From Halocatena halophila (GTDB lineage: Archaea; Halobacteriota; Halobacteria; Halobacteriales; Haloarculaceae): a DNA stretch of 64,000 nucleotides. The stretch spans positions 1 to 64,000 of the forward strand of contig CP071307.1 of assembly GCA_027563145.1 (NCBI GenBank), given 5' to 3'. Of this stretch, positions 18,396 through 53,184 are shown one piece after another (positions within the stretch are counted from its first letter, which is position 1; every line of letters starts with the position of its first letter). Position numbers and translations under genes: made by a program. The notes below the pieces were generated by a model. That model was not told the origin of the DNA. It saw only the letters and a program-made list of their open reading frames with translations, and searched no databases.

Positions 18396-18496
18396 ATTAT
18401 AATATAAATTAGGATAAGTGCGGTAAGAGGGTTGGGGAGTGAGTTTTTCATCCAATCACCATTGTTGGTGGGCAATCGTTTTGTTACTAATTTGTA

Positions 18497-19720: not shown

Positions 19721-19750
19721 TGTAACTGATTGGTGGAGGATAGCTATTGC

Positions 19751-20275: not shown

Positions 20276-20395
20276 GGATCAACAGAATACTCCGTGATAC
20301 ATATATTTACTTTCGTATCTAAATATAGTAGAAAAGCTAAATAGGATCTGAGGCCACCAATTTGTATTTTTACAGAAAGCTAGTTAGAAATATAT

Positions 20396-37472: not shown

Positions 37473-38315
37473 ATGGTAGGGAATTCGAATTCGGTGGAAC
37501 GATATCGGCAGCGCCCAAAATCAGTCGTAACGGAATCTGGTGACGGCCCCCCGGTCGTATTCGCCCACGGTATGTTGATGGATCGAACGCTATTCACGCC
37601 ACAGTTGTCAACATTGTCAGACACGTATCGGACGATTGCCTACGATCTTCGCGCTCGGACAGATCGATACGAAGGTCCGTACAACCTTTCCGCACTCGCT
37701 GATGATCTCGCAGCGTTGCTCGACACCCTCAACGTCGAGTCGATTGTGCTTGCCGGTGTTTCGACAGGAGGATTCATGGCGTTGGACTTTGTGAACCGTT
37801 ATCCTGAACGCGTTCGAGGGATCATCCTCATCAACAGTATGGCAGCGTCGCATACCGAAACAGAACGAAATGAGTACAGCAATCTCGCAGCGCAAGTTCG
37901 TAAGAACGGACCGACCGATCAATTGCTCGACATCGGTCGAGTCCGGATGTTTGGTGAGACAACACGCGAAACAAATCCAGTCCTTGTCGAGCACTGGGTC
38001 AATCGGTGGCGCACCTATCCTGGGGAGGCTATTTACTACGAGATGCAATCGTGGATCGGTCGAGAGGACTTTACGGACAAATTGTCCAATATTACAGTTC
38101 CGTTTCTTTCGATCCACGGCACGGAAGATACCGTACTTGCTCCAGAACGCACTGAATCAATGCTTACACAGGTCCCGTATGGAGACCAGGTGTTGATTGA
38201 GGATGCCGGACATAGCGCGCCGATTGAACGACCTGATCCCGTAAACCACGCCATTCGAGAATTCCTTTCGGATGTCTCGACATGCCAGATTCAGTCACAA
38301 TTCAGTGTTTGGTGA
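37473..38315 (+). CDS. Alpha/beta hydrolase (thioesterase/esterase candidate)
   Basis: Soluble alpha/beta-fold hydrolase of 280 residues. The oxyanion HG is in VFAHGMLMD (30-38), the nucleophile is Ser97 in GVSTGG, the acid aspartate is in HGTEDTV near 215, and the histidine is in DAGHSAP near 247. The triad is complete. It lies at the left edge of the type II synthase cluster on the same strand as the MaoC gene, but 415 bp away. It might release product from ACP or CoA (inference from position); the fold alone does not show that. Confidence 0.8.
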   Translation: MVGNSNSVERYRQRPKSVVTESGDGPPVVFAHGMLMDRTLFTPQLSTLSDTYRTIAYDLRARTDRYEGPYNLSALADDLAALLDTLNVESIVLAGVSTGGFMALDFVNRYPERVRGIILINSMAASHTETERNEYSNLAAQVRKNGPTDQLLDIGRVRMFGETTRETNPVLVEHWVNRWRTYPGEAIYYEMQSWIGREDFTDKLSNITVPFLSIHGTEDTVLAPERTESMLTQVPYGDQVLIEDAGHSAPIERPDPVNHAIREFLSDVSTCQIQSQFSVW

Positions 38316-38730
38316 AATATTTCCATCCTTGATTAATACTGTATAATGGCAGTGAGAAAAAGCGCGAATTCATTGCTTGAATTGTGTGGGTGTTGTGAGC
38401 AGTTGCGAGCGGCAGGTGGTGCTGGCACTCACACTGAAACTAGCGGTAACGCCCAGAGCGCATGCAAGTAATACTGATGCGCGTTCCGGTATTCGACGGT
38501 GGCAATCGTCTCTCCCATGAAACATCATGGCTGATCCTCAAGAACGTACCCCTAATTTTGATCCAGACCGAATGTGTGTCCTTTCGTAAAATCAGTATGA
38601 GATGCGCAAGTTGAGCACAGATACCGTCAATTAGTTTTTGAATATTATAAATACAATTCATAGATAATAATATATAATAAATTATATATGAACAAAAAGA
38701 TTAATATAAATGTAACTAGAATATTATCAT
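38316..38730 (+). promoter_or_regulatory. Intergenic region with AT-rich promoter before MaoC gene
   Basis: About 415 bp. The first 300 bp show nothing recognisable. 38640-38730 is extremely AT-rich; TTAATATAAA at 38701-38710 lies about 25 bp before the ATG at 38731, matching a haloarchaeal TATA box for a leaderless transcript. Confidence 0.45.
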
Positions 38731-39177
38731 ATGGAGGAACTACACTATGAAGACATCTCAGTTGGTGACACAGACGAATTCGGAAGCTATACTGTAAGCA
38801 AAGAGGAGATAACCGCATTTGCTGAGCAGTACGATCCACAGCCGTTTCATGTTGATGAGGAAGTTGCCAAAGAGTCGGCATTTGGAGGGCTCGTTGCTAG
38901 TGGTCTCCAGACTGTTGGAATTGGACAACGGATGATGGTTGAGAATATGCTTCTCAATTCCAGTGCTAGGGGGGCTCTCGGAGTCGATAATCTACGGTGG
39001 AAACAACCTACTCGTCCTGGAGATACTCTCTCTGTGAAGACTGAAATAGTAAAAAAAAGGCCTTGGATCGATGACCTTGGAATTGTTAGCATTCAAATGA
39101 CTGTAGTAAATCAGAATGATGAGAAATTAGTATCTCTTATTGTATTAATACAGTTTGGAATGAATGATGATGCGTAG
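38731..39177 (+). CDS. MaoC-like hot-dog dehydratase
   Basis: 148-residue hot-dog-fold protein predicted to dehydrate a 3-hydroxyacyl thioester to the trans-2-enoyl form (or the reverse hydration). The hydratase-2 motif is at about 32-42, with catalytic Asp35 and His40 in QYDPQPFHVD, followed by FGGLVASG near 51-58. In the cluster it can supply the FabZ/FabA step between ketoreductase and enoyl reductase. MaoC proteins in haloarchaea also serve PHA metabolism, so CoA substrates are possible. Confidence 0.88.
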   Translation: MEELHYEDISVGDTDEFGSYTVSKEEITAFAEQYDPQPFHVDEEVAKESAFGGLVASGLQTVGIGQRMMVENMLLNSSARGALGVDNLRWKQPTRPGDTLSVKTEIVKKRPWIDDLGIVSIQMTVVNQNDEKLVSLIVLIQFGMNDDA

Positions 39178-39296
39178 GGGCTTTCCCACAGCACCCATAT
39201 TTGATTTAAATTCGCGAGAAATCTGATTAATTGATTTAATAAAGAGCACCGTATAGGAGCATAGCACACCCAAGTTAATGGAGATGGTGGTTATGC

Positions 39297-39779
39297 TCAC
39301 AGTATTTCATCGTTTGAACATTCATTACAGATAACCCGGGTCTCACCGATAGTGGATCTATCTATCTCATGTATTGTTTCTTCTTGACATCTATTGCATG
39401 GGTATAATACGCTCACTTCGTCCGGATCGTGTCCAGCACCCGGTGCACCGATTGCCCAAACTGTGAGTGGTTCATCGTCTTTATTATCTCCCCTCTGAAA
39501 TTCGCCAGGAGGAAATCTGATTAGCTCTCCCTCTTTTACTTTCACTGTTTTTTTGTCCTCACCCACTGTGAACGTAGCTATTCCTTTCTCGACATAGAAG
39601 ACCTCTTCTTGATCGTCGTGTTTGTGGAAGAGACCAGCGATCGACTCTCCTGGCTCCAGACGAAAAAAGTTCATTACGAAATCTGTTGTCCCGAGTTCAT
39701 AGGAGATCGGTCGCCGTTCGCTATGAACATCTAATGGACTTAATACTACTCGTGCATCTTCAATATTTATCTTATCCAT
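39297..39779 (-). CDS. Cupin-domain protein with C-terminal zinc ribbon
   Basis: 160 residues. The N-terminal part (about 1-110) is a single cupin barrel: GLFHKHDDQEEVFYV is the metal-binding motif 1 (His, His, Glu) and FPPGEFQRGDN the second motif. The C-terminal tail has CNRC near 130 and CNEC near 153, a zinc-ribbon pattern unusual on a small cupin. Function unknown; it could be a sensor or metal-dependent enzyme. It sits between the MaoC gene and fabG and runs with the fabG-fabD operon direction. Confidence 0.75.
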   Translation of the reverse strand: MDKINIEDARVVLSPLDVHSERRPISYELGTTDFVMNFFRLEPGESIAGLFHKHDDQEEVFYVEKGIATFTVGEDKKTVKVKEGELIRFPPGEFQRGDNKDDEPLTVWAIGAPGAGHDPDEVSVLYPCNRCQEETIHEIDRSTIGETRVICNECSNDEIL

Positions 39780-39878
39780 AGTTAGTATTGCAAATACAGA
39801 CCAATAAATCTTTATAATATTATAGAAATTTAGTATTGGAGCAATACATGGTATACCATTGTTCGATTATTGATCATT

Positions 39879-40628
39879 TTATGAAAGCTGTCCTCCATCA
39901 GCCCGAAGGACAGAACCTGTGATATAGCTGGCCTCATCGCTTGCGAGGAACGCCACGACACCTGCGACCTCCTCTGGTGATGGAATTTCCCGCTGTGGAA
40001 TCTCTTTAATCACGTCGTTTTCAGAGATGTGTTGATCGAACAGATCCGTTTTTACGTATCCGAATGCGACTGCATTCGATCGGATGCCTCGTCGAGCATA
40101 CTCATGAGCGACAGCCCTTGTCAACCCAATAAGACCGGTTTTACTCGCACAGTATGCTGTTTGTCCTGTGAAGCCGCGAACACCGGCCATCGATGAGATA
40201 TTCACGATGGCTCCATTGTTTTCCCTTTTCATATACTCTGTTGCAATCTTTGTGCAGTTCCATGCCCCATCAAGGTTAACCGCTATGTTACGGTCCCATT
40301 CTTCCTTTTCTAGACGAAACAGCACTTTTGCGGTCATCATTCCTGCGTTGTTGACAAGCACTGATGGTGGACCAAACTCTTCTGCAACACTATCGATCGC
40401 TGCTTTTGCGGCGTTATAATCGGCAACATCAAATTTTATTATATCTGATTTAACATCATAATTTGAAAGGATCTCTTTCATCTCCTCCGCAGCCTCGTCG
40501 TCTGAGTAATATGTTGGAATTACGGCTGCGCCCTCCTCTGCGAACCGCTTTGTAATTCCTCGTCCAAGTCCACGTGTGCCACCAGTAATTATCACTACGT
40601 CATTTGCAAATTCATATCCTTTTGTCAT
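39879..40628 (-). CDS. fabG: 3-oxoacyl-[ACP] reductase, FabG-like SDR
   Basis: NAD(P)H-dependent ketoreductase of the classical SDR family, 249 residues. The cofactor motif TGGTRGLGRG is at 15-24, NNAG at 93-96, the catalytic serine near 145-146 (NISS) and Tyr159/Lys163 in YCASK. Its start overlaps the fabD stop by 4 bp, so it is translationally coupled to the transacylase gene, which strongly supports ACP-linked reduction over a generic SDR role. Confidence 0.88.
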   Translation of the reverse strand: MTKGYEFANDVVIITGGTRGLGRGITKRFAEEGAAVIPTYYSDDEAAEEMKEILSNYDVKSDIIKFDVADYNAAKAAIDSVAEEFGPPSVLVNNAGMMTAKVLFRLEKEEWDRNIAVNLDGAWNCTKIATEYMKRENNGAIVNISSMAGVRGFTGQTAYCASKTGLIGLTRAVAHEYARRGIRSNAVAFGYVKTDLFDQHISENDVIKEIPQREIPSPEEVAGVVAFLASDEASYITGSVLRADGGQLS

Positions 40629-41569
40629 ATTTTTAGTTTATCTATGTCTTCTATAGAATCAATTGCCACTACTTCTGCATCAGGGTGAATTGTGGTGATA
40701 AAACTAGCAAGCGTTCCTGAGGGTGGAAATTCGACATACTGTTGTACTCCTTCTGCTTTCAGTCGGTCTACCACTCCAGTCCAGTCAACTGGATTTGTAA
40801 TTTGTGTTTTGAGAGAAGCCAACACCTCATTCGGGTTTTTGATCATCTCTTTCGTGGTACTTGAAACGACCGGTGTGTGAAGGACAGTGTCTGGTTGATA
40901 TCTTTGAAGAACTGGAGCGAGTTTCTGCTCTGCAGGTTTCATAATTGGCGAATGGAACGGTTCACTGATGTCGAGATCGATGAAACGGATTGGGTTATCT
41001 TCACTCTTCTTAAGTGTTTCGATGACACCATCGACGGCCGTTGCAGTACCACTTATCACTGTCTGTTTCGGTCCATTAAATCCCGCGACACTGACCTCAG
41101 TGAACTCCTCACAGATGGAGGCAACAATATTAGGCGAGACTAATAGAACGGCAACCATTCGTCCATCGATATCCTCACAGACAGCTTCCATCACTTCGCC
41201 GCGCTTTCGGACCACTTGGACACTGGTTGTTGGATCGAGACCGCCAGCGGCTGTAACTGCTGTATACTGTCCCAGACTGTGACCACTCATGTAATGGGGA
41301 AAGCGGCCGACTTGATTATGTACTGCCATGTAGGCTGCAATACCTGCTGCAAGTACTGTTGGCTGCGTATTTCTTGTTGGTCGCAATTCTTCAGAATCAC
41401 CCTCAAAACAGAGATCCAATAACTCGAAATCAACGGCAGCGTCCATCTCCTTGAATACGGCTCGCGCATGGGAGTCTTGCTCGTAGAACGATCGAGCCAT
41501 GCCCGTTTTCTGGCTTCCTTGACCAGGAAAGACGAAAGCTGTCTTTGTACTGAAGTTATCTCTACTCAT
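40625..41569 (-). CDS. fabD: Malonyl-CoA:ACP transacylase, FabD-like (copy 1)
   Basis: Transfers malonyl from CoA to the ACP phosphopantetheine arm. The N-terminal FPGQGSQKTGM is at 14-24, the nucleophile is Ser98 in GHSLG, the conserved Arg near 121-123 (RKRGEVM) binds the malonyl carboxylate and the catalytic His206 lies in EPFHSP. The aromatic xFH form matches malonyl- rather than methylmalonyl-selective AT domains. ATG at 41569 gives 314 residues; 45 further in-frame bases upstream are not family-like. Coupled to fabG. Confidence 0.92.
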   Translation of the reverse strand: MSRDNFSTKTAFVFPGQGSQKTGMARSFYEQDSHARAVFKEMDAAVDFELLDLCFEGDSEELRPTRNTQPTVLAAGIAAYMAVHNQVGRFPHYMSGHSLGQYTAVTAAGGLDPTTSVQVVRKRGEVMEAVCEDIDGRMVAVLLVSPNIVASICEEFTEVSVAGFNGPKQTVISGTATAVDGVIETLKKSEDNPIRFIDLDISEPFHSPIMKPAEQKLAPVLQRYQPDTVLHTPVVSSTTKEMIKNPNEVLASLKTQITNPVDWTGVVDRLKAEGVQQYVEFPPSGTLASFITTIHPDAEVVAIDSIEDIDKLKI

Positions 41570-41637
41570 GTATTTTTCCGTAATGGTTATGTAGCGACGA
41601 ATACTCCAAATCATCCATGTTGGATGTGGTATTCTTA

Positions 41638-42519
41638 TTAATATCTTTCATAGTCTGGATCAAACATTAACGCTGAGTACGGTTCCGGCTCTACTCCGTC
41701 TACAACATTATACTGCGAGAAGTCTTCTACCCCTACCTCCTGAAGTAGTTTTTCGTCATAAAATGCATTACCGGTACAATCATCGGGATGTCTCGAAACA
41801 ATCTCAAGAACGGCGTCCGACACTATTTGTGGGTCTCGCCAGTCTCTTTCAGTTCCGATGCTGTAGTATTGTGTTGCACGGGATTCGATAGCGGTACTGG
41901 GCCAGAATGTGTTTACGCCAATACTGTATTCACGTAGTTCCTCAGCCAATGCCTTCGCAAGGAGCGTCATCCCAAACTTCGTGATACCGTAGGCAGCTCG
42001 TCCCGATATATCGTGTGTTCCGATAGGTGGTGAATTCATTAGGATGTGTCCATGATCCTGTTTTTTCATATGTGGGATCGCGGCACGCGAGCAAATATAT
42101 GCAGCGCGCACATTCGTTTCGAATAATTTCTCAAATTTTTCAACAGAATCTGTCTCAACAGATCCCATATTATCTAACATATCAGTTATATTGTCGATAT
42201 CTGCTAGAACTGCACCAGCGTTGTTGATGAGAATATCGAGTCGTCCAAATTCATTAATAGTCTCATCGATAGCATTGTATATTTCTTGCTTATCACGTAC
42301 ATTCATCTTGATTGCTAACGACTTATTCCCACGTGCCTGTGCCTCTTTTGCGGTCTGGTGAATTGTTCCTTCTCTGCTTCTCAGTGGTTTTGAGGTTCTC
42401 CCTGTTGAGACAACGTTACATCCACAATCAGCAAGTGAGAGTAGTATGTCCTTGCCGATGCCACGGGTTGAACCGGTAACAAGCGCAACTTTACCGGTGA
42501 GATCCGGCTTCTCAAACAT
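41638..42519 (-). CDS. SDR oxidoreductase (HSDL2-like)
   Basis: 293-residue short-chain dehydrogenase with a longer-than-classical insert. TGSTRGIGKD is at 15-24, NNAG near 99-102, and the active site YGITK is near 175-179. The catalytic serine position reads NSPP, so the usual serine follows one residue earlier than normal and should be checked. Extended C-terminus (DDCTGNAFYDE) resembles hydroxysteroid-dehydrogenase-like protein 2 relatives, which often act on acyl-CoA-type substrates. It lies 68 bp upstream of fabD in the same operon direction; a second reductive step is possible. Confidence 0.8.
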   Translation of the reverse strand: MFEKPDLTGKVALVTGSTRGIGKDILLSLADCGCNVVSTGRTSKPLRSREGTIHQTAKEAQARGNKSLAIKMNVRDKQEIYNAIDETINEFGRLDILINNAGAVLADIDNITDMLDNMGSVETDSVEKFEKLFETNVRAAYICSRAAIPHMKKQDHGHILMNSPPIGTHDISGRAAYGITKFGMTLLAKALAEELREYSIGVNTFWPSTAIESRATQYYSIGTERDWRDPQIVSDAVLEIVSRHPDDCTGNAFYDEKLLQEVGVEDFSQYNVVDGVEPEPYSALMFDPDYERY

Positions 42520-42739
42520 GGTCTATACTGGTATTGTAGAGCCCTCGCGTGAGTGACCCTCTCAACTGCCTGAGATTGGTCCGACAGGTTCGTATCACTG
42601 GTGTAACTGGGATCGTATTTGCCATATCCTATCTTGTTTAATAGATAATACACCGTAATAAAAATTCCCATTCATATCATAGATAAAATTTAATAAATTT
42701 TATAATAAGATTTATAATTACTGGCAATAAAATAATAAT
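42520..42739 (+). promoter_or_regulatory. Divergent AT-rich promoter region for the ACP operon
   Basis: 220-bp divergent spacer between the SDR and ACP genes. TTTATAATTA at 42710-42719 sits about 25 bp before the ACP start at 42740, the spacing of a TATA box for leaderless transcription. One control region may drive both halves of the cluster. Confidence 0.5.
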
Positions 42740-43054
42740 ATGGAATCTAGTGAATTAGATAAGTGGACAAATGAAGTAATACTTCAATTGATCCCAGAGA
42801 GTGGTAGCGATATTAATAACGACGAAACATTCGATGAGGACGGGCTTGATGCTGATTCTCTCGCTATTGTCGAGATTATGTATAGTGTAACTGATAAATT
42901 TGGGATCGAAATTGCTGATGAAAATATTGAGGAGATCAGGACGGTTGGAGATCTCAAGCTGTACATCATTACGCATTCGGACAAGTTCGATGCTACTGAT
43001 GCAGAAAAGCTAGATCTGGATAAATCACGGTTCAAAGAAATAGCGCAACTATGA
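42740..43054 (+). CDS. acpP: Acyl carrier protein
   Basis: 104-residue acidic protein with the ACP four-helix pattern. The phosphopantetheine site is Ser40 in the motif LDADSLAIVE, helix II follows, and helix III region reads GIEIADENIEEIRTVGDL, closely resembling bacterial AcpP. A 24-residue C-terminal extension (after about 80) is extra. The stop overlaps the ketosynthase start (ATGA), and an AcpS-type phosphopantetheinyl transferase lies two genes downstream. ACPs are rare in archaea because isoprenoid lipids do not need them. Confidence 0.92.
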   Translation: MESSELDKWTNEVILQLIPESGSDINNDETFDEDGLDADSLAIVEIMYSVTDKFGIEIADENIEEIRTVGDLKLYIITHSDKFDATDAEKLDLDKSRFKEIAQL

Positions 43055-44277
43055 ACGTACCGGAGATCGTCATTACTGGACTGGGCGCTATTTCTTCCAT
43101 CGGTAAGAATGCACAGTCCCAGTGGGATGCGGTGGTGGAAGGAACAAGCGGTGGCAACACCATTCAGGCGTTCAATCCATCGGAAACATCCTTACGCGGT
43201 TCAGTTGCCCACGAGATTACCACATTTTCTCCCGAAAACTATGATTTTATTGAGCAACGAGTGACTGGAGAATTCACTCAGTTTGGTCTTGTAGCAGCAA
43301 ATGAAGCACTTGAAGATGCAGGATTGGATCCAAACGATTCAGAATGGGAGTCATCCCGAGTCGGAACGAGCTTCGGCACCTGCTTTGGCGGTGTCAAAGA
43401 ACTAGGGAATGATATAAGAAACGGAAAATTTAGCTTCCATATCTCAATTCAATTCCTTCCCAATCTCGCTGCAGGCCATATTAGCAGCCAGTTCAACGCG
43501 AGAGGTCCCAATAAAGCACCAACAACAGCATGTGCTGCCGGCACACACGCGATCGATACTGCAGTTCAGGAACTGAGGCAAGGACGTGCAGACATAATGA
43601 TTGTCGGTGGTGCTGAAAAAGCAGTGCATAGGTTCGGCGTTGGTGGATTCGATGCGATCCGTGCCTACTCTACCAGCCACAACGGCGAACCGACCAAAGC
43701 GTGCCGTCCCTTCGACCAGGACCGGGATGGTGTCGTGGTGGGAGATGGTAGTGGGGCATTGATTTTAGAAACACGTGAACACGCCCAACGACGCGGTGCT
43801 GACGTATACGCGACTGTTGCTGGTCTCGGTGCCTCCAGTGACGCGATGCATCCGATCAGTCCTCCGGATGATGCCCACGGTTTAATCCATGCGATCGAGA
43901 TGGCGATTACCGACGCTGGAATCAAAAAGAATGCAATCGATTACGTCAGTGCACACGGAACGAGCACCCCCGGTGGGGATGTCCACGAAGCAACTGCAGT
44001 TAACAAAGTCTTTGGTGATCAAAAGATGCCGTATGTCACGGCGATGAAAAGCCAAACCGGACATACGCTCGGTGCCGCTGGTGCGATCGAAGCCGTTATC
44101 GCAGTCCAATCGATTATCAACAATGTAATTCCCCCGACGATAAATCTAGAGAACCGTGATAGTGAGTGCGATATTCCGGTTGTAACAGAACCGATAGAAC
44201 AAAACGTCTCTACTGTTCTCTCGAATTCTGCAGGATTCGGTGGGACAAACGGGACGGTTATATTCACGGATGCATGA
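43051..44277 (+). CDS. fabF: 3-oxoacyl-[ACP] synthase, FabF/KAS II type
   Basis: Elongating condensing enzyme joining malonyl-ACP to an acyl chain with CO2 release. Active-site Cys161 lies in TTACAAGTH, His302 in SAHGTST, Lys333 and His338 in MKSQTGHTLGAAG: a complete Cys-His-His triad with the conserved lysine. The 408 residues are the KAS II length. It is a single ketosynthase without a chain-length-factor partner, arguing against classical aromatic type II PKS and for a reductive synthase. Coupled by 4-bp overlaps to ACP and AcpS. No FabH-type initiator is seen nearby. Confidence 0.94.
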   Translation: MNVPEIVITGLGAISSIGKNAQSQWDAVVEGTSGGNTIQAFNPSETSLRGSVAHEITTFSPENYDFIEQRVTGEFTQFGLVAANEALEDAGLDPNDSEWESSRVGTSFGTCFGGVKELGNDIRNGKFSFHISIQFLPNLAAGHISSQFNARGPNKAPTTACAAGTHAIDTAVQELRQGRADIMIVGGAEKAVHRFGVGGFDAIRAYSTSHNGEPTKACRPFDQDRDGVVVGDGSGALILETREHAQRRGADVYATVAGLGASSDAMHPISPPDDAHGLIHAIEMAITDAGIKKNAIDYVSAHGTSTPGGDVHEATAVNKVFGDQKMPYVTAMKSQTGHTLGAAGAIEAVIAVQSIINNVIPPTINLENRDSECDIPVVTEPIEQNVSTVLSNSAGFGGTNGTVIFTDA

Positions 44278-44684
44278 ATGATTTACTAGTTTGTTCTGGG
44301 ATAGATGTAATTTCTATCACGCGAATAAAACAGGCGCTGTCGCGGGATACTGGATTTAAACAAGGGATTTTCTCAGAGGGCGAGATTGACTACTCTGACA
44401 GTAAAGAGCGTCCAGCACGTTTTTTCGGTGGGAGATGGTGTGTAAAGGAGTCGTTCATTAAGGCACTTCAGGAAATGAGTGCTACAGAATCAGTACATTT
44501 TGACGAAATAATAGTTGGGAAAGAAGGCGGATCTCCGCAGTTAGAACTACTAGGAGACACCAAGCGTGTGTTCGAACGATCACTTCCTAGCGGTATGCTA
44601 TCATACAGCATTAGTATTAGCATCTCGCACGATGAGGTGGCCAATATCGCATCAGCATCGTGTATCATCGTCATTCTAACGTGA
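44274..44684 (+). CDS. acpS: Holo-[acyl-carrier-protein] synthase (AcpS-type PPTase)
   Basis: Attaches 4'-phosphopantetheine from CoA to the ACP serine. The two AcpS motifs are present: GIDVISITRI (9-18) with Mg ligand Asp11, and RFFGGRWCVKESFIKAL (49-65) with Glu59. The 136 residues are typical of trimeric AcpS. ATG at 44274 overlaps the ketosynthase stop (ATGA). Encoding carrier, ketosynthase and activating enzyme as one coupled operon means the cluster brings its own ACP maturation. Confidence 0.9.
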   Translation: MNDLLVCSGIDVISITRIKQALSRDTGFKQGIFSEGEIDYSDSKERPARFFGGRWCVKESFIKALQEMSATESVHFDEIIVGKEGGSPQLELLGDTKRVFERSLPSGMLSYSISISISHDEVANIASASCIIVILT

Positions 44685-45431
44685 CTATTGTCGACTTGGT
44701 TGGCACTCGTTTCTGTCGTTCAGTCTCAACACAATCCTATTGAACGAGCTGTGCTGAGTCTCCGTATAGCAATGCGGCATTTTATAAAGAAAAAATGGAG
44801 AATGATAATTCTAGTTATCTAATAATTCTATTGCCAACTTTTTCAGGAATGTTATCCATACCTCAACGGTGATTACGTGGTGTTAAAGTCCATCACACCG
44901 ACGCACCCAATCAATCACGGTAAACGGTGCTGGATACGACAGCCCACACCGGCACAGTCCCTAAATTCTACTACCTATAGCGGGGATCGTTGGTTCGCAT
45001 CCCTTCTTGGACTGGGGGTTTATCCGTCGGTACGACGTCTCGTTCCCATGGCTGCGCCGACATAAAACACGGCTGATTGATCGACTCACTCCCCAGCTTT
45101 ATCCTCCATTTCGTGATCGAATTCAACACAGGCAGGACCATCCTGCTCGTACCCCTGCCGTCGCTTGTGTATCGAGCGAGCGGTCACAACGGACCTGTAG
45201 CGGTTCCTCAAAATCCTAGATGAGAACGAAACGGAATCGCCCACCCACGCTCGCCAGAATGGAAGTCGTGTGATGGAGGTCTTCTTGCTCAGGTCCACCG
45301 GACACCAAACACCGCTGCCTTCATAGCCGCTTTCCGCTCTCCATTCATAGATTATGCCCAGTTGGGCGACGGCACCTGACCTCGGTGTCACAGTGGCCAT
45401 CGACTAAACGAACGGTTCTGTCGCAGTGTAC
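44685..45431 (+). other. Intergenic region within the synthase cluster
   Basis: About 745 bp. 44750-44860 is AT-rich; 44870-45400 is GC-richer and looks like decayed coding sequence in several broken frames, possibly a mobile-element remnant. No family recognised. Confidence 0.4.
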
Positions 45432-46481
45432 CTATGGATTGATCGCCATGACTATGTTACCGATGCTGTTTCTGCTCTCTAAGTATTCATGTGCAGATGA
45501 AACGTCTGTCATATCAAACACCTCGTCTATTTCTACGTGATAAGTGTCTCTCTCTACCATTTCGAACATGGTGGTGATGCCATCCATTATACTCGTTCTC
45601 GTCTTCTCATTCAACAATGCCAACAAAAGGTGGAATCCGTGAATGGACACGCCAGAAAATATCAGATCGGGGGTCGTAACGATACCTGGTGTTCCACTTG
45701 AAACGCCATACGTGATTATCGATCCGCTTTCATTCATAACCGCAAGCGTCTGTTTGAATGTTCTGCCACCGATGCTTTCGAGTGCGATATCGATTCCGAC
45801 AGTATCGTCACAAATGTCGTCGATTTCGGTCGTGATACTGTTGGTCGCGTAGTTTATCGTGTGGTCCGCCCCCATGCGAGTCGCGAACGCAATCTTATCT
45901 TCGTTACTGGCGATGCCAATCACTGTAGCGTTAGACCAGGTGGCGATCTGTGTAGCAGCGTTGCCAACGCCCCCCGCAGCAGAATGGACGAGTACGGTGT
46001 CTGAGGGCTCTATCTCGCCGATCGGTTTTAGAATGCCATAGGCGGTCAGGAATGAGACAGGGATCGCTGCCGCCTTTTTGTCGGAAATACCATCTGGAAT
46101 TTTGAAAACCAATTCCGCCGACTGTGGATTAAAGAAACAGTTCGTTCCATGAATCGCCTCCGAAAAATCGGCTGTCGCCTGATCGCTCCATGTTCCCCCT
46201 TGGAATTTTATCATTCCAACGCGTTCTCCAGTGCTCCAACCTTCCAGTCTTCCATTGATTTCCGTTATGGTCCCTACTCCTTCTAATCCCGCCTGATACG
46301 GCGGACTCCAATCCATAACCACACCGTGATAGTTTCCACGTCTTTTCTCGACTGATGTGTAGTTAATCCCGCTGTACGTCATTTGGATACACATCTCACC
46401 TTCGTTAGGACCTACCATCGGTGCTTGCTCAACTTGGAAAACTTCAGGCCCCCCCGGCTCGTGGACAATTATTTCTCTCAT
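45432..46481 (-). CDS. Zinc-free MDR oxidoreductase (quinone/enoyl reductase-like)
   Basis: NADPH-dependent medium-chain reductase without catalytic zinc cysteines. GroES-like domain at about 1-115 and a Rossmann domain with HSAAGGVGNAATQ (near 147-159) as the cofactor loop, characteristic of quinone oxidoreductase and of PKS/FAS enoyl reductase domains. ATG at 46481 starts MREIIVHEPGGPEVF, the family N-terminus (349 residues); seven upstream residues are dispensable. In the cluster it is the best candidate for the enoyl-ACP reductase step; no FabI/FabK/FabV homologue is seen. Confidence 0.85.
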   Translation of the reverse strand: MREIIVHEPGGPEVFQVEQAPMVGPNEGEMCIQMTYSGINYTSVEKRRGNYHGVVMDWSPPYQAGLEGVGTITEINGRLEGWSTGERVGMIKFQGGTWSDQATADFSEAIHGTNCFFNPQSAELVFKIPDGISDKKAAAIPVSFLTAYGILKPIGEIEPSDTVLVHSAAGGVGNAATQIATWSNATVIGIASNEDKIAFATRMGADHTINYATNSITTEIDDICDDTVGIDIALESIGGRTFKQTLAVMNESGSIITYGVSSGTPGIVTTPDLIFSGVSIHGFHLLLALLNEKTRTSIMDGITTMFEMVERDTYHVEIDEVFDMTDVSSAHEYLESRNSIGNIVMAINP

Positions 46482-46579
46482 ATAATAATTGTAGGAGGCC
46501 AAATAAAAATAAATTACTAAAAAAGATAAAAATTATATATAACGACAATATTAATAATCTTCAAGAATATGAATAATAT

Positions 46580-47509
46580 ATGAGGAAGATTGCCTTCGTA
46601 TATCCAGGACAAGGAAGCCAAAAACAAGGGATGGCTGCGGATTTCTACGAGAAAAGTGGTGTCGTTCGAGAGAAACTGGACTGTCTTGATGGCGCATGTA
46701 CGTTCGACCTCCAAAGACTGTGTTTGACAGCCCCCTCAAAGGAACTGCGACGAACTCGGAACACACAACCTGCCGTCCTTGCGACAGGGGTCGCCGCATA
46801 CGCTGCAGTAACCGAAACAACGCCTGTTGTGCCTGATGTCGTTACCGGCCACAGCCTCGGTCAGTACACGGCCATAACTACCGAAGGAGGTATTGCCAAT
46901 GAAGATGGCATTAGGTTAGTACGAACACGGGGAAGGCTCATGGAGACCACGTCCTCAGGTCGAGTGGGTGTGATGTACGCCGTTCTGTTTGCCGATTCGG
47001 ATGATATCAGTGACGTTTGCGAGGAGTTCGATACGGTCGGAATTGCCGGGTTTAACACGCCAAACCAGACGGTGATCAGCGGAGAAAAAGGTGCTGTCGA
47101 AGCAGTACAAGAGGAGCTACAAAAGAGGACGAACGCCCGATTCATCAAGGTCGATACGGATGAAGCGTTCCATTCGCCACTCATGAACGAAGCAAACAGG
47201 CAGTTCTCACAGGTCCTCGAAGCGGTGGATTTCTCAGAGGAGACTGAGTCCCCAATCGTTTCCGATATTACAGGTGAGATGTACACCGCTATGTCAGACC
47301 TTACATCGATCCTTGCCGATCAAATAATACAGCCGATCAACTGGCGAGCAGTCATGCAAACGTTAGATAATGCTGATGTAGACACGATCGTCGAGTTCCC
47401 ACCTGCTGGCACGCTCAGCAAATTCTTCGAAGACACATATCCTGATAAAAACGTAGTGTCCATCGATTCATACGATGATATTCGGAGCTTGGAATCATCA
47501 ATAAAATAA
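46580..47509 (+). CDS. Malonyl-CoA:ACP transacylase, FabD-like (copy 2)
   Basis: Second transacylase, 309 residues. YPGQGSQKQGM at 8-18, nucleophile Ser92 in GHSLG, the carboxylate-binding Arg in RTRGRLM near 115-121 and catalytic His198 in DEAFHSP. The AFH form again predicts malonyl preference. It is homologous to copy 1 but clearly diverged, not a recent duplicate. It stands divergent from the MDR gene. Possible division of labour: malonyl loading versus starter loading or proofreading (inference). Confidence 0.92.
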   Translation: MRKIAFVYPGQGSQKQGMAADFYEKSGVVREKLDCLDGACTFDLQRLCLTAPSKELRRTRNTQPAVLATGVAAYAAVTETTPVVPDVVTGHSLGQYTAITTEGGIANEDGIRLVRTRGRLMETTSSGRVGVMYAVLFADSDDISDVCEEFDTVGIAGFNTPNQTVISGEKGAVEAVQEELQKRTNARFIKVDTDEAFHSPLMNEANRQFSQVLEAVDFSEETESPIVSDITGEMYTAMSDLTSILADQIIQPINWRAVMQTLDNADVDTIVEFPPAGTLSKFFEDTYPDKNVVSIDSYDDIRSLESSIK

Positions 47510-47643
47510 TGTGTACTGTTACAGGCTCACCACTCGACTGGCTAGTTTCTGTGCATCTCCGTGTCCGACAGGCCCTGTTACGTCTTCGAAACCGGGGGAG
47601 TACATCGGTGAGCGATTGTCCGATCACTCACTGGGTCCTCCTC

Positions 47644-47835
47644 TCAAGTCTGATCTGAATTTCTCTCTGCACGTTGTTCGTTGAGATATGCGTAGAGACA
47701 CACCGCGAGGGCTGTGATCTCGGGGTCGGTGAGCTTCGAATCACACGAAAAATCACGTTCGTCTTCGCTACAGTCCCAGAGTGACACCGAGTCGAAACCT
47801 CCGTAGAGAGTCGATATGGATTTATCTGGGGTCAT
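47644..47835 (-). CDS. Small acyl-CoA carboxylase epsilon-like subunit (PccX-like)
   Basis: 63-residue protein directly downstream of the carboxyltransferase gene, sharing one base with its stop (TAATG). The C-terminal helix LTDPEITALAVCLYAYLNEQ matches the pattern of small epsilon/PccX subunits that in actinobacteria and haloarchaea bridge or stabilise the carboxylase complex. The N-terminal half is variable. The call depends on position and this helix motif. Confidence 0.65.
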   Translation of the reverse strand: MTPDKSISTLYGGFDSVSLWDCSEDERDFSCDSKLTDPEITALAVCLYAYLNEQRAERNSDQT

Positions 47836-49421
47836 TACAACGGAATGTTGCCATGTTCTTTGGGGAGACGTTCACCGCGTTTGCCTGCGAAGAGATCAAG
47901 GTCTTCAATAAGGCGACTTCGTGTCTGCCGTGGGTCGATCACGTCGGTGATATAGCCGTTTTCGGCTGGTGTATACGGGTTGGCGAACTCCTCGCGGTAC
48001 TCCTCAATCAGCTCTTCGCGTGTGGCGTCAGTGTCGTCAGCGGCGGCCAGCTCCGTACGGTGGAGAATGTTGACCGCGCCTCGCGGACCGAGGACTGCCA
48101 GTTCAGCGGTCGGCCACGCGTACGCACGGTCGGCACCCAGCTCTTTCGAGCCCATCACGATATAGGCCCCTCCGTACGCTTTCCGGACTACGACGGTGAG
48201 TAACGGGACCGTGGCTTCGGCGTAGGCGTAGATGAGTTTTGCGCCGTGGCGGATGATGCCGCTATGTTCTTGGTCGGTACCGGGCAGAAACCCTGGCGTG
48301 TCTACCAGTGTAATGATAGGGAGGTTGTAGGCGTCACAGAATCGAACGAACCGGGCAGCCTTGACGCTAGCGTTGATGTCGATGGTGCCGGCGATGGTCC
48401 GGGGCTGGTTGGCGACAACGCCGACTGCCCGGCCGTCCAAGCGCGCAAACCCGATGATCATGTTCTGTGCAAACTGACTGTGCAACTCGAATAACGAGTC
48501 TTTGTCGACGAGTACGTCGATCACCTCCACCATGTCGTAGGGTTTTTTTCCGTCGGTGGGGACGAGCTTGGTTAGTCGGTCACACGCCCGGTCGGGATCG
48601 TCCCACGCCTTGACGCGGGGTGGATCTTCCATCGTGTTCTGAGGGAGGTAGGACAGCAGTCGGCGGATACCATCCAGTGCATCGGTCTCGTTCTCGTAGG
48701 CGTGGTGGGCGACGCCACTGGTGGCAGTGTGAGCGGCCGCCCCCCCGAGCTCGGCCATCGAAATCTGCTCGCCGGTGACAGTTTCGACCACGTCCGGGCC
48801 GGTGATCATCATGTGGCTGGTGTCAGCAACCATGAAGGTAAAATCGGTGAGTGCCGGCGAGTAGGTCGCGCCGCCCGCACACGGCCCCATTATACAGGAA
48901 ATCTGGGGAATCATCCCGCTGGCGTCTGTGTTGCGCTTGAAAACCCTGGCGAATCCACCCAGCGCGTCGACGCCCTCCTGGATCCGTGCCCCTCCCGAGT
49001 CGTTCAGTCCCACGACTGGCACGCCCGCTTCGACGGCTTGATCTATTACCCGACAGATCTTGTCAGCGACTACTTCGCCGACCGAGCCACCTAACACAGT
49101 AAAATCATGGGCGAAGACGAACGTCTTGCGTCCGTCGATCTCACCATGCCCTGTCACCACCGCGTCGCCGGGGACATGGTTGTCTTCTAGTCCAAACTCG
49201 GTACACCGGTGCTCTACGAACGGCCCCATCTCCCGGAAGGTGCCCGGATCAAGGAGGTACTCGATGCGCTCGTAAGCGGTCATCTTCCCCTTCTCGTGTT
49301 GGGCAGCGATCCGCTCCTCGCCACCACCCAATAGCGAACGCTCGCGGTGATGATTTAACTCGGCAATCAGGGCCTCGATGTTCTCTTTTTGCTCGTTCGA
49401 ATTCTTGTTACTCTGTCCCAT
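47835..49421 (-). CDS. Acyl-CoA carboxylase carboxyltransferase (beta) subunit
   Basis: Moves CO2 from carboxybiotin to an acyl-CoA, giving malonyl- or methylmalonyl-CoA. The 528 residues span two crotonase-like halves: acyl-CoA-binding NDSGGARIQEGV (140-151) and MGPCAGGATYSP (178-189), and carboxybiotin-side DTPGFLPG (374-381) and RKAYGGAYIVMGSK (413-426). Ile421 sits where, from memory of actinobacterial work, Asp marks propionyl-CoA and Ile acetyl-CoA preference, so malonyl-CoA production is suggested. No biotin carboxylase/BCCP (alpha) gene is in the window, so it must borrow one. Confidence 0.92.
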   Translation of the reverse strand: MGQSNKNSNEQKENIEALIAELNHHRERSLLGGGEERIAAQHEKGKMTAYERIEYLLDPGTFREMGPFVEHRCTEFGLEDNHVPGDAVVTGHGEIDGRKTFVFAHDFTVLGGSVGEVVADKICRVIDQAVEAGVPVVGLNDSGGARIQEGVDALGGFARVFKRNTDASGMIPQISCIMGPCAGGATYSPALTDFTFMVADTSHMMITGPDVVETVTGEQISMAELGGAAAHTATSGVAHHAYENETDALDGIRRLLSYLPQNTMEDPPRVKAWDDPDRACDRLTKLVPTDGKKPYDMVEVIDVLVDKDSLFELHSQFAQNMIIGFARLDGRAVGVVANQPRTIAGTIDINASVKAARFVRFCDAYNLPIITLVDTPGFLPGTDQEHSGIIRHGAKLIYAYAEATVPLLTVVVRKAYGGAYIVMGSKELGADRAYAWPTAELAVLGPRGAVNILHRTELAAADDTDATREELIEEYREEFANPYTPAENGYITDVIDPRQTRSRLIEDLDLFAGKRGERLPKEHGNIPL

Positions 49422-50329
49422 AACTTACTATCTCTATTATTTTGTTCATATGATATTTATTTATCAAATAATACGTGTCATCATTAACTGTCGATTCTAC
49501 GTTTTCGATGTTTAATACTAATCCACTACTATTTTTCTATTAACATTCAAATAATAAAAGGACTTCACATTAGAAAATTTTTTATTGATAGACCTGTATC
49601 AATAATGTGGTTTTTCTTCGGAGAACAGCTGCTGAGCTTACAGTGTTTTCCAAACAAATATTATTATCAGCTGCCCATTACTTCTTGGCCAACAGGCCGT
49701 CCGAAGGGAACCGCAGTTTGTGTGTTCTCCCGCAAATCCGTGGGAGGTTGTGTGATACATTCTAGATTTTGTAGACTCAGGGACAATTGCATTCCTCCGA
49801 ATGTTCCACCTACCGAGTTTTTGTGCAAGGATTCGAGTGATGTGGATCACCCAGCGTTGCTCGATCCATAGCTACTCCACTCACATAAGTATATATTGAA
49901 CTTATTATATATTGACCTTCCTTTGATTCTCTCGAACATCCCTCTATTCCACGCCTCTTACAATAGTAAAATGAACTGCATAGATTCTCTTTATAATATA
50001 TTCCCTTCCATCGCTTGTTTATACCAATAATTGTTGTCTGTAATACAAGCATTATTCACGAATATTGGCATTATCCTTTGGACTTCAATATATCTTCTGC
50101 GGCGTTCGCAACTGCGGAGTTTAGAGCGACATTGAACTGTTTTTACTAGATCCGTTGCTTTTTGAGTCCTACAATGATTTTATCGCGATTCCACGATCCG
50201 ATTAGTAGATAGAGATGACTGTAACATTCTGTTATACGAACTACTTCGTAGTAGCAAAGTCTATCTTTTCCGTTCTCCAGACTATCAGTATTTTGTGAAT
50301 ATTTATAAGAAATAAGAATGAATTCCCAG
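49422..50329 (+). other. Intergenic region within the cluster
   Basis: About 900 bp, strongly AT-rich, especially 49430-49620 and 49880-50100. Short broken frames only; nothing recognised. It contains the probable promoter of the carboxyltransferase operon near 49440-49470. Confidence 0.4.
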
Positions 50330-51745
50330 TTATATATCAGTGGTCTCATCGTTGCCGAAGACATCATCTATTGGCTCCTTCTGATCTGTTGGCAACGCGA
50401 TTCGTGTCGAGGTGATGAATCTCTCATACGAAAGATTCTCATCGAGCTGGTTTCCGCCCCATGGTCCAGCGCCGAGCGCCGCCGTATTGGTAAGGTCGTT
50501 TCTAAAGCTAGTGGCGATATCGATTCCCGATTGATTGACAGCAACACGACAAACATCAACTTCTCGTCCAACTTGTTCGGTCCGATCGGGAGATGTAGTA
50601 TGGATGACACAGGAATGGCCCGTTCCTTGGTAGTCGAGTATCTGCTTGGTCGTCGTCACCGCATCCTCGAAGGTATCCGCCTGATACATTGTTAGCACCG
50701 GCGCGAGCTTTTCTCCACTGAGTGGGTGTGCAGCTCCCACTCCGCTCTCTTCTACCATAATAAGGTCGGTTTTGTTAGATACGGACACATTCGCTTTCTC
50801 GGCGATTTCTCTTGCCGACTTTCCGATGACTAAGGGGTTGATCGAATCGGAAAGGAACATGGTCGCTTCAATGGATTTGGCTTCCGTTTCGGTGCACAAG
50901 TATCCGCCCTCTGCTTCGAGTGCTGCTATCAGTTTCGAATACACGTCAGCATGGGCTACGACCGCGTTTTCACACACACATACGATGCTGTTATCGAACG
51001 TCGTCCCAGTGACAATATCCGTTGCTGCCTCCCGAACGTCTGCTGTCTCATCCACGATTGCGACGATGTTTCCTTCGCCAACGCAGTAGTTTGGCGTTCC
51101 TGACTCCTGTCCAGCTTTGACCTTTCTCGATGAACCGGTCACCTGGACCAGATCGACGTGTTCCATGAGCTCGTACTCACGATTTCTGTTTACCGGAACC
51201 GGGAGTAACTGGATGAGGTTACGAGGTGCACCAGCATCAGCAAGTGCCTCGCGGACGTATTGGACCGTCAGAGCCGCCGTATTGACACAGTGAGGAGGCG
51301 AGGAAATGACAATCGAGTTACGACCCTTCACGGCAAGCATCGCGACGTTTACTATCGTCGTACCCGGATTCGTTGACGGAATGGAGGTACCGATAACTCC
51401 GACCGGTTTCATGATTTCGATAATGTTCGGGCTCTCTGTTTTTCGGACGCCAACGGACTGTTCGTCAATGATATCTGTGAAAACGCCCTTACAACAACGC
51501 TGAATCTTTTGCTTTTTATCAGCCTTGTTTCCGAGCCCAGTCTCTTCATGGGCTGTTTTCGCGATCGATTCTGCGTGTTCTTCTCGATAGATTGTCCACC
51601 CGATCGCCCGAATCAGATCATCAACCTGTTGCTGATCGTATCCAGCAATTTGCTTGTAGGCGTTGGACGCCGACTCGATGAGATCGGTCACTATTGGTTG
51701 GGGTGACCGCTCGTCCCGAGGCAGATTTATATTATCTCCGTTCAT
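50330..51745 (-). CDS. CoA-acylating aldehyde dehydrogenase (EutE/SauS-like)
   Basis: 471-residue enzyme of the aldehyde dehydrogenase superfamily, acylating subgroup: interconverts an acyl-CoA and an aldehyde with NAD(P). The thiol is Cys256 in FDNSIVCVCEN, equivalent to the cysteine in the ICASEQ motif of AdhE-type enzymes; the general-base glutamate of hydrolytic ALDHs is absent. IMKPVGVIGTSIPSTNPG near 111-128 is also typical of acylating members. It ends the synthase cluster. It could reduce a product acyl thioester to an aldehyde, or feed an aldehyde in as acyl-CoA. Confidence 0.88.
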   Translation of the reverse strand: MNGDNINLPRDERSPQPIVTDLIESASNAYKQIAGYDQQQVDDLIRAIGWTIYREEHAESIAKTAHEETGLGNKADKKQKIQRCCKGVFTDIIDEQSVGVRKTESPNIIEIMKPVGVIGTSIPSTNPGTTIVNVAMLAVKGRNSIVISSPPHCVNTAALTVQYVREALADAGAPRNLIQLLPVPVNRNREYELMEHVDLVQVTGSSRKVKAGQESGTPNYCVGEGNIVAIVDETADVREAATDIVTGTTFDNSIVCVCENAVVAHADVYSKLIAALEAEGGYLCTETEAKSIEATMFLSDSINPLVIGKSAREIAEKANVSVSNKTDLIMVEESGVGAAHPLSGEKLAPVLTMYQADTFEDAVTTTKQILDYQGTGHSCVIHTTSPDRTEQVGREVDVCRVAVNQSGIDIATSFRNDLTNTAALGAGPWGGNQLDENLSYERFITSTRIALPTDQKEPIDDVFGNDETTDI

Positions 51746-52655
51746 TTTTCTCACCCGTCGCGTCTAAGGCCTCAGGCGTGCAGTTCCTAACAGCAAAAAC
51801 GACTGCTGGATCAATACTGTAACGAGTAGATGGTTTTATATTTGATACACACATACTATAAAATAAATATTGCTATGACATATTAGTTTCGAAAATGCAA
51901 CTTTAATAGATAATTTTCTTAGAGGATGTTTCTTCTTTGGTTCCTGTTTCGGGGATGACTATCCAATCGAGAGCGTGAGGATAGTGGGAGTGAACTGAGA
52001 GTGATCAGCCGGAGAGGGACCGTTAGAGATGTTTTCGGTGGAGGCCTGTGTCTTTGACGCTGCCATAAGGTTGATACTCGTGGCCGAATTTGGAGACGAT
52101 GAGCATTTTTCCCTCCGCACCGACGTCGACGGTGAGATTCGTTAATTCGAGCTGAGCTTTGAGGATAGCAATGGCTGGTGACGGTTTCGGTACGAAGACT
52201 CGGGATTACTGTCGTGGTTGTGGTCATCTTCGTTTGTAGGTGTCGGGCTCTGATTACCGACTGGGATTCAGGATCGGCAGATGGGTGCGTGATGCTCACG
52301 ACACGGTTCTCCCGGATCATACGAGTCCTTGTGTTGTCTTTATCGGGACCGCTCCCGCGCCTGGCTGCCGGCTCAGCGGCGTTTCGGGTAGGCTTCGCAG
52401 AGGCTGCGTCCGAGATCGGGAGCGATGACAGTTGCCTGTGTCCATTATCCGACAAATGGCTGAGGCACGATCATGTGACTACGGACAGGTTTTCCGCAAC
52501 GATGAGCCTTGCTACCACTGTTAGGACTCAGTGAGTAGTGTAGAGAAAGAGTTGACTCACTCATTGTCAGCAGTCGCCCAAAGATACTAGTTTCGCCGAC
52601 CGTTGACCTGTGGATATTCATGGGCACCATCTTCGGGAATTAGGATTATTGGAAA
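51746..52655 (-). other. Decayed region between cluster and integrase remnant
   Basis: About 900 bp. On the minus strand near 52045-52180 one frame reads NLTVDVGAEGKMLIVSKFGH and continues as YQPYGSVKDTG to a stop, acidic and gene-like, while upstream parts are broken by stops and frame shifts. It appears to be the 3' end of a dead gene of unknown family. Confidence 0.35.
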
Positions 52656-53184
52656 TCACGTCAACCCAGCTTCCTCAAAAGCTTCGTTAACGACGTCTGG
52701 CGTTGGAGCATTGAGATAGGGTTTGATGGCCTGGAACGAGTCCCAACCGCCGGCCTGCATGACGACTCGTGGGTTTATCTGCCGATCGACGAGGAGCCGC
52801 TGAGCGAAACGTCGCCGGAGATCGTGCGAAGAGACATGCCGATAGTCGGGATCACCAGTTTCCTCAGCTGCTCTTTCAGCCGTTCGCTTCACAACTGCGC
52901 GTACTCTCGGGCGGAGAGATCGACGAGCGGCGGGTGCGATCGTCTCGGCAGTGGATGGCGATGGACATCACTCTCGATGTAGGGTGGGAGGTAGGCATCG
53001 CGAGGCTTTCCACCGAACCGGTGGTATTCTTCCCTCGTGGGACACGCAGCCGGTAGTGATCACCGTCCGTCGTCTTTTTCACATGTTGCGGACACACCTG
53101 GGGAATCTCGAACCCCCCACCGAACTGGAGAATGAGATCGTCGCGATGACTGGCATCAGATCGCCAGAGGTGTTCGAGTTCCAT
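52656..53184 (-). pseudogene. Tyrosine recombinase (XerC/D-like integrase) remnant
   Basis: The 78-residue minus-strand frame at 52656-52892 carries the integrase C-terminal box: SSHDLRRRFAQRLL (HxxR) and GGWDSFQAIKPYL with the likely catalytic tyrosine. Upstream, a shifted frame (to 53184) still reads YRLRVPRGK, the core-domain beta strand region. A frame shift separates the two and the N-terminal domain is gone. No intact attachment repeats were found. It marks past integration at the right flank of the synthase cluster. Confidence 0.75.

Follow-up and report, generated by a model that had tools for sequence, protein, structure and literature searches.

An acyl carrier protein-based acyl synthase gene set in the haloarchaeon Halocatena halophila and its possible link to the lipoyl cofactor

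The DNA analysed here (the window) spans the first 64 kb of a contig of 845 kb from the haloarchaeon Halocatena halophila, whose genome (3.75 Mb in 5 contigs) is rated at 94.6% completeness and 0.13% contamination. Between positions 37473 and 51754 we read thirteen genes and one possible open reading frame (ORF) of 63 residues. The core of this region (38731-47509) is a gene set for acyl chain synthesis on an acyl carrier protein (ACP), formed by the ACP itself, a FabF-type ketosynthase (KS), the holo-ACP synthase AcpS, two proteins resembling malonyl/acyl-coenzyme A (CoA):ACP transacylases (MAT1 and MAT2), FabG, a MaoC-type dehydratase and an MDR-family reductase. An initial annotation had named these genes, together with a carboxyltransferase and an acylating aldehyde dehydrogenase (ALDH), and all of them are present at or near the positions given there. 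The core genes are the following:

38731..39177, + strand: MaoC-type (R)-enoyl hydratase/dehydratase (PF01575, 69 bits; DPQPFH stretch)
39879..40628, - strand: 3-oxoacyl-ACP reductase FabG (PF13561; NF009466, 229 bits, cut-off 222)
40625..41614, - strand: MAT1, malonyl/acyl-CoA:ACP transacylase, FabD-like (PF00698)
42740..43054, + strand: ACP (PF00550 over its cut-off, 32.8 bits against 20.8)
43051..44277, + strand: KS, FabF-type beta-ketoacyl-ACP synthase with Cys-His-His (PF00109, PF02801)
44274..44684, + strand: holo-ACP synthase AcpS, 136 residues (PF01648; a longer GTG frame starts at 44166)
45432..46502, - strand: MDR-family reductase, candidate enoyl reductase (PF00107)
46580..47509, + strand: MAT2, second transacylase, FabD-like (PF00698)

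The ACP is the sole PP-binding match found in the genome by profile search, and its phosphopantetheine serine (Ser40) is present and invariant across 20 aligned haloarchaeal ACPs. In an AlphaFold model (pLDDT 84) this serine is the first residue of helix II, and the top structural matches of the model in Foldseek are ACPs. For the KS, the top model is TIGR03150 (fabF; 427 bits, under the equivalog cut-off of 493.75) and the subfamily model NF005589 is passed (420 bits, cut-off 387). Its catalytic residues (Cys161, His302, Lys333 and His338) are identical in 42 of 42 rows on the haloarchaeal side of the KS alignment. AcpS scores 64.6 bits with TIGR00556 (cut-off 45.35) and 44.3 bits with the acpS equivalog model, below the cut-off of 59.8. 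It probably starts at the ATG at 44274, since this codon overlaps the KS stop as ATGA, just as the KS start overlaps the ACP stop, the successive genes of the ACP-KS-AcpS row being joined in this way at both junctions. MAT1 and FabG, both on the - strand, share a 4-base overlap (40625-40628). The top model of both transacylases is fabD (TIGR00128; 252 bits for MAT1 and 231 for MAT2, cut-off 260.9), and both have the GHSLG, R.RG..M and FHS..M motifs, while FabG passes NF009466 and does not reach the FabG equivalog models. MaoC matches 3exz in the PDB (3e-24), and MDR matches 2-haloacrylate reductase best (1e-36), against 2e-16 for mitochondrial enoyl reductase. Proteins of the FabZ/FabA and FabI/K/L/V types are absent from the cluster genes, to which the search for them was confined, and FabH gives only partial matches in the window genome (best E 1.5e-5), none over cut-off. 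Based on this set of genes, the window very probably encodes an ACP-dependent reducing acyl synthase. The alternative of an aromatic polyketide synthase was rejected, and the polyketide product that the initial annotation had allowed for is unsupported: no chain-length factor is found, the fabF model has a single match in the genome (with the catalytic Cys present) and the reducing set is full.

The survey of relatives was based on a profile search of 391 haloarchaeal genomes and on a sequence collection containing plasmids only. With the fabF model, a FabF-type KS was found in 16 of the 391 genomes (11 of 86 genera), in no case over the bacterial equivalog cut-off. The 15 other carrier genomes have 17 KS loci, around each of which about 20 kb were examined (14 kb for one): ACP and AcpS each accompany KS in 16 loci, MAT and FabG in 15 (FabG lying 3-4 kb away in two of these) and MDR in 12. 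The neighbourhood recurs, the ACP-KS-AcpS-MAT-FabG group being found in 15 of the 17 loci, mostly as a single operon, relative to which the gene order of the window is rearranged. Operon-bearing plasmid records come from Haloferax mediterranei (pHME505), Haloterrigena turkmenica (pHTUR01), Haloterrigena sp. KLK7, Halomontanus rarus, Haloarcula sp. JP-L23, Natrinema sp. SYSU A 869 and Natronorubrum bangense.

In a midpoint-rooted KS tree, built with a quick method, the 42 haloarchaeal-side rows form one clade against 39 others (SH-aLRT 100); 23 of the 42 rows are database proteins, four of them with a haloarchaeal name shown, and 12 of the 39 others are unnamed database proteins. When the KS alignment was compared with genome contigs, one of 80 loci was haloarchaeal by its title (L043) and the remainder were bacterial. 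These sequences are most simply read as having been acquired early and as having then evolved for a long time and spread among the haloarchaea. The gene set is dissociated, ACP-based and of its own haloarchaeal lineage, with chain building as its predicted function. Contamination was rejected as an explanation, given the low contamination rating, the length of the contig and the position of the window KS among haloarchaeal KS. The three objections raised in advance by the initial annotation (a carrier protein lacking its serine, a bacterial contaminant, or a set consisting wholly of CoA-linked polyhydroxyalkanoate enzymes) do not hold, since the serine is present, the genome belongs to a haloarchaeon and KS is accompanied by ACP, AcpS and MAT, and its proposal of a dedicated ACP-based reducing synthase in a haloarchaeon stands on the same grounds.

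Some loci of the relatives contain further genes of related function. The Haloterrigena turkmenica cluster encodes a second, diverged ACP-like protein (L034:5635-5895, - strand; best NCBIfam score 34 bits) between FabG and MDR. Near the Haloferax mediterranei operon lies a pantetheine-phosphate adenylyltransferase gene (L142:8935-9453), together with CBS-domain and phaC genes. Genome G124 has a second KS (L038:3320-4600) about 13 kb from its operon, and an ACP was not found beside that KS.

In four of the 16 KS carriers, belonging to three families, no more than 15 kb separate the synthase operon from glycine cleavage genes and an extra lipoyl synthase. These genomes are G181 (which corresponds to Haloterrigena turkmenica pHTUR01), G196 (Haloterrigena sp. 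KLK7), G242 and G368, and each has a second GcvH and a second LipA at this distance from KS. The neighbours of the synthase in the island are IclR, threonine ammonia-lyase, GcvT, GcvH, GcvPA, GcvPB, SHMT, Lpd and LipA. All four genomes also have an M20 peptidase there, and three of them each a DUF5058 protein and a protein resembling glycine transporters; G368 encodes PdxS, to which G242 has a homologue, and a FolC/FolP-like fusion is found in the latter. By its gene content, this is a predicted glycine/serine/threonine utilisation island carrying the makers of its own cofactors. Among 32 genomes (the 16 carriers and 16 non-carriers, the latter being the first rows of the genome listing and not a random draw), two LipA over cut-off occur only in these four. 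LipA copies within 16 kb of KS number four, with 0.15 expected by chance, or three when the two Haloterrigena are merged (P 5e-4), at a distance threshold chosen after the data were seen. In G181, G196 and G242 the island LipA does not group with the chromosomal copy of its own genome, consistent with transfer of the island. A fifth, decayed copy is found in Haloarcula sp. JP-L23, with gcv genes, ACP, AcpS and MAT, about the last third of KS only, and a partial FabG.

A second recurrent neighbour is an R2lox oxidase, whose gene lies beside that of MDR in 7 of the 17 KS loci. The Haloferax mediterranei and Natronorubrum bangense operons likewise have R2lox next to MDR, as does that of Natrinema sp. 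SYSU A 869, where the gene is in two pieces. The top PDB match is 4hr0 (GkR2loxI, 8e-26), and the E, ExxH, E, ExxH residues, which we take to be the metal ligands, and a Tyr-Val pair, presumably the cross-link pair, are invariant in 9 aligned rows, so the protein encoded beside MDR shares the ligands of the R2lox family. In G300 the R2lox gene adjoins a second MAT gene, on a different contig from KS, and in G053 it is found with MDR, although this genome is not among the KS carriers. R2lox matches above 430 bits occur in 8 of the 16 KS carriers against 1 of 375 other genomes, a test (Fisher 9e-12) that is partly circular, given that seven of the eight carriers contributed rows to the model and that the threshold was set afterwards, and for this reason the weight is placed on the adjacency. 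Matches of any kind are found in 132 of 391 genomes, including that of the window, which has four, scoring at most like generic R2lox, and none beside the window cluster. Three of the four island genomes (G181, G196 and G368) have R2lox as well as the gcv-lipA island, so the lipoate and R2lox uses are not exclusive.

Compared with known systems, the haloarchaeal set shares with bacterial type II fatty acid synthase (FAS) a discrete ACP with its own AcpS, a FabF-type KS with intact triad and FabG, and the MATs of the window are FabD-like, both scoring under the fabD cut-off. It differs from it in that the window genome lacks a FabH over cut-off, the window set has MaoC and MDR and no FabZ/FabA or FabI-type protein, the haloarchaeal KS clade stands apart from the sampled bacterial rows, and the system is an accessory of 16 of 391 genomes. 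Mitochondrial FAS is made up of a FabF-type KS without FabH, MCAT, an SDR reductase, a MaoC-type dehydratase and an MDR enoyl reductase, and the parts list of the window (no FabH, MaoC-type dehydratase, MDR reductase) resembles this one. The main product of the mitochondrial system is described, in the portion of PMC3471957 consulted, as octanoyl for lipoylation, including that of the glycine cleavage H protein and of 2-oxoacid dehydrogenases. By sequence, however, the window KS scores 334 bits with bacterial FabF against 226 with chains labelled mitochondrial, and the window MDR is nearer to haloacrylate and quinone reductases than to mitochondrial enoyl reductase. Since the KS is closer to bacterial FabF, the likeness would be one of working and not of membership, which neither the KS nor the MDR sequence supports. 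By this analogy, the best reading is a synthase mobile within the haloarchaea and built like mitochondrial FAS. The proposed ACP-independent (thiolase type) fatty acid synthesis of archaea would also yield acyl chains but, according to the part of PMC3533463 consulted, needs no ACP, whereas the haloarchaeal system is built around one. Archaeal lipoate assembly (LipM/LipA, or LplAB with LipS1/S2) has in common with the islands of the relatives LipA and a lipoyl protein, and the islands differ in that an ACP synthase adjoins them.

The remaining genes of the 14 kb, whose membership in the pathway is less clear, and the feature at the right edge of the cluster are the following:

37473..38315, + strand: alpha/beta hydrolase, putative release enzyme (PF00561)
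39297..39779, - strand: cupin protein (PF07883), with two CxxC pairs at the C terminus seen by eye
41638..42519, - strand: HSDL2-like SDR of the PRK08278 family (NF006133, 282 bits, cut-off 250)
47644..47835, - strand: 63-residue ORF after the carboxyltransferase, its start overlapping the carboxyltransferase stop
47835..49421, - strand: PccB/MmdA-type carboxyltransferase (PF01039, 637 bits), doubtful as a pathway member
50330..51754, - strand: CoA-acylating aldehyde dehydrogenase (ALDH), SauS-like, with a GTG start and an ATG at 51745
52656..54206, no strand assigned: remnants resembling site-specific integrases and transposases, bordering the cluster on its right

The initial annotation had joined all the genes of the 14 kb in one pathway, and this stands for the core set only. 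Matches to the window carboxyltransferase, MaoC, cupin and hydrolase were found in none of the 17 related KS stretches (14-20 kb each), those to the HSDL2-like SDR are weak and fall on FabG genes only, and ALDH is matched in one, L033 (99% identical to Haloarcula sp. JP-L23), where it adjoins FabG, the two ALDH being 40% identical. We also searched 14 further flanking stretches for the accessory genes of the window and examined gene maps for 5 of them: G242 has a weak MaoC match (32 bits) at a distance of about 17 kb from KS, and G389 an SDR 46% identical to the HSDL2-like protein, some 28 kb away from its KS, with nothing else new among the accessory genes. The window genome has five carboxyltransferases of this kind in all, and the single biotin carboxylase match is located on contig 1. 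The 63-residue ORF that follows the carboxyltransferase and overlaps its stop is a plausible candidate for the small subunit named in the initial annotation. A stretch of Natribaculum breve is 72.7% identical to the window carboxyltransferase, and in Natribaculum luteum an acyl-CoA carboxylase subunit is encoded together with an aldehyde dehydrogenase and methylmalonyl-CoA mutase, the annotation table containing no KS. ALDH (NF047625, 459 bits, under the cut-off of 600), itself a doubtful pathway member, has its closest plasmid relatives in non-synthase contexts, the best match adjoining a tripartite tricarboxylate transporter and a CoA transferase. The carboxyltransferase may supply malonyl-CoA and ALDH may release an aldehyde, roles to which the related loci give little support.

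In the mechanism that we propose, AcpS would convert ACP to holo-ACP and a MAT would load it from malonyl-CoA, MAT1 and MAT2 possibly differing in the acyl group handled. Since there is no clear FabH, the FabF-type KS would itself start the chain, either by decarboxylation of malonyl-ACP or with an acetyl group loaded by a MAT. FabG, MaoC and MDR would then finish each round, two carbons being added per round on ACP, until the chain is halted early by a bulky floor of the KS pocket, where Phe112 occupies the position of FabF Ile108. The substitution I108F in FabF shortens acyl chains. The available part of PMC3996569 has it placing a residue into the acyl pocket. Phe is found at this position in 8 of 42 haloarchaeal-side KS rows against 0 of 39 others, and the Gly preceding it is replaced in 26 of 42 against 1 of 39. 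A bulkier pocket floor in many haloarchaeal-side rows would fit short chains, an argument that we regard as weak because one of the four island KS has Leu. Saturated acyl-ACP of short to medium length is the predicted product, and by analogy with the glycine-linked relatives the chain is likely octanoyl, destined for the lipoyl cofactor. In that branch, a LipM-like transferase encoded elsewhere would move octanoyl from ACP to GcvH, and the LipA of the island would then sulfurate it there. These last two steps (transfer and sulfuration) are the weakest for the window, as no lip or gcv gene was found beside its cluster. The initial annotation had left the product open, and it is the neighbourhoods of the relatives that point to the lipoyl cofactor.

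Several observations weigh against this proposal. LipA is over cut-off in 12 of the 16 non-carriers (and in 15 of the 16 carriers), so haloarchaea lipoylate without the ACP system and the synthase is not generally required. Neither gcvH nor lipA lies within 15 kb of KS on the contig in 12 of the 16 carriers, the window genome included (some contigs being short), and in no carrier does the KS contig have an LplA/LipB-family gene closer than 190 kb to KS (for these distance checks the 12 LipA-bearing non-carriers were kept and the other 4 dropped). The LipA, GcvH and lipoate-ligase-like genes of the window genome are all on contig 1, and the best of its ligase-like proteins, below every cut-off, resembles the LplA ligases, a type that uses free acids. 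Within the island branch, the KS of G368 is the one with Leu instead of Phe at the pocket position, and a full-length FabH-like match (108-113 bits) is present in this genome as well as in G298 and G124, so initiation may differ in these three; no carrier has a FabH over cut-off (292 bits). MaoC was not found in the 17 related KS stretches, and the R2lox genes at 7 of the 17 loci suggest that the product of that branch is an oxidised chain.

Taken as a whole, the statement that this is an archaeal ACP-based acyl synthase with a short or medium product, likely octanoyl for lipoate, seems to us evenly balanced, a grade which blends those of its parts: very high for the synthase, tentative and somewhat under an even chance for octanoyl in the island branch, as judged from gene neighbourhoods, and rather doubtful for octanoyl as the product of the window cluster itself. 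The wider picture of a mobile, ACP-dependent octanoyl synthase that travels with gcv and LipA and feeds LipM-like transferases, with side branches handing the chain to R2lox, is a speculative one, to which we give distinctly less than an even chance. Bulk lipids fit less well. A PlsC-type acyltransferase (PF01553) is found in 0 of the 16 carriers (PlsX and PlsY were not searched) and a wax ester synthase in one of them only (G389), which argues against bulk membrane or storage lipid and led us to reject phospholipid acylation and wax esters as products.

The most serious rival, unlikely in our judgement and still of real weight, is that the ACP system is real and that its chain, once released, is modified into a secondary lipid, lipoate being incidental: R2lox would hydroxylate or desaturate the chain in the relatives, and in the window ALDH or the hydrolase would release an aldehyde or a free acid. 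The R2lox genes in the 7 loci and in the Haloferax mediterranei, Natronorubrum bangense and Natrinema operons speak for this, as do the binding of fatty acids by R2lox proteins (stated in the parts consulted of PMC4118035 and PMC10867098) and the ALDH adjoining FabG in Haloarcula sp. JP-L23. The window cluster, however, has no adjoining R2lox and the genome's matches are at most generic in score, its ALDH is 40% identical to that of Haloarcula and has its nearest plasmid relatives in other contexts, and R2lox coexists with the gcv-lipA island in three genomes. We consider it improbable that the cluster was acquired as a mobile unit and is now silent or in decay, its operon having fragmented in the window so that little or no product is made. 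Such decay would account for the scrambled gene order, for the G+C content of 0.477 against 0.57-0.60 in sampled chromosome stretches, for the remnants flanking the cluster (distant blastn matches to annotated haloarchaeal integrases and a Halocatena transposase, in a region where all ORFs are short) and for the decayed Haloarcula copy; but the frames are intact with their catalytic residues, the ACP-KS-AcpS and MAT1-FabG overlaps are kept, and a lowered G+C content (0.51-0.53) extends over the remainder of the window and a further 20 kb beyond it on the contig. That the enzymes serve polyhydroxyalkanoate or another CoA-linked pathway, with ACP as a side partner, seems very improbable: a phaC gene lies 2 kb from the operon in Haloferax mediterranei, yet ACP, AcpS and a FabD-like MAT, none of which a CoA pathway needs, accompany KS in 15 of the 17 loci, and no phaC appears in the (incomplete) annotation tables of six other annotated stretches.

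Elsewhere in the window, positions 15724-21412 contain in a row genes for an AMP-binding (PaaK-like) protein, a MenA/UbiA-type prenyltransferase (TIGR00751, 126 bits, over cut-off), an FAD monooxygenase, a chorismate-lyase-like protein (weak, 31 bits) and a weakly matched methyltransferase, a set suggestive of prenylated hydroxybenzoate or quinone synthesis in a haloarchaeon. An archaeal frame of 855 residues (12698-15265) has N-acetylmuramoyl-L-alanine amidase and SH3 domains.

The view that archaea generally lack ACP, on which the initial annotation relied, is also expressed in the part of PMC10332631 consulted, which leaves the octanoyl source for their lipoate open. The same view raises the question of how acyl lipids arise in archaea that are not fed fatty acids: for Natronomonas pharaonis, the text seen of PMC11948995 states that wax esters were undetected without added long-chain fatty acids. 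The view had already been qualified in 2012, when ACP and its processing enzymes were noted in a few archaea, as transfers from bacteria (PMC3533463, in the part available). The presence of ACP genes was therefore partly foreseen, and, as far as these sources go, what is new is the link to glycine cleavage, lipoate and R2lox. Among titles and abstract openings (with subscription papers and preprints outside the scope), we found no publication on this haloarchaeal ACP operon or its lipoate link, nor, among the R2lox papers found, one making the connection between R2lox and an ACP synthase operon. In the portions consulted, PMC4118035 (2014) describes the physiological function of R2lox as unknown, and PMC10867098 (2024) reports the hydroxylation of alkanes by one member.

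The ACP synthase found beside gcvH and lipA likely makes a short chain for the lipoyl cofactor, whose source has so far been missing in archaea. If this is true, it would be an archaeal counterpart of mitochondrial FAS, supplying the octanoyl-ACP that LipM-like transferases were thought to lack. The operon also offers a genomic partner for R2lox, and the side branches, if real, would give this oxidase a physiological partner. Since the operon occurs in cultured haloarchaea (Haloterrigena turkmenica and, in the R2lox form, Haloferax mediterranei), the octanoyl and acyl-lipid questions are testable.

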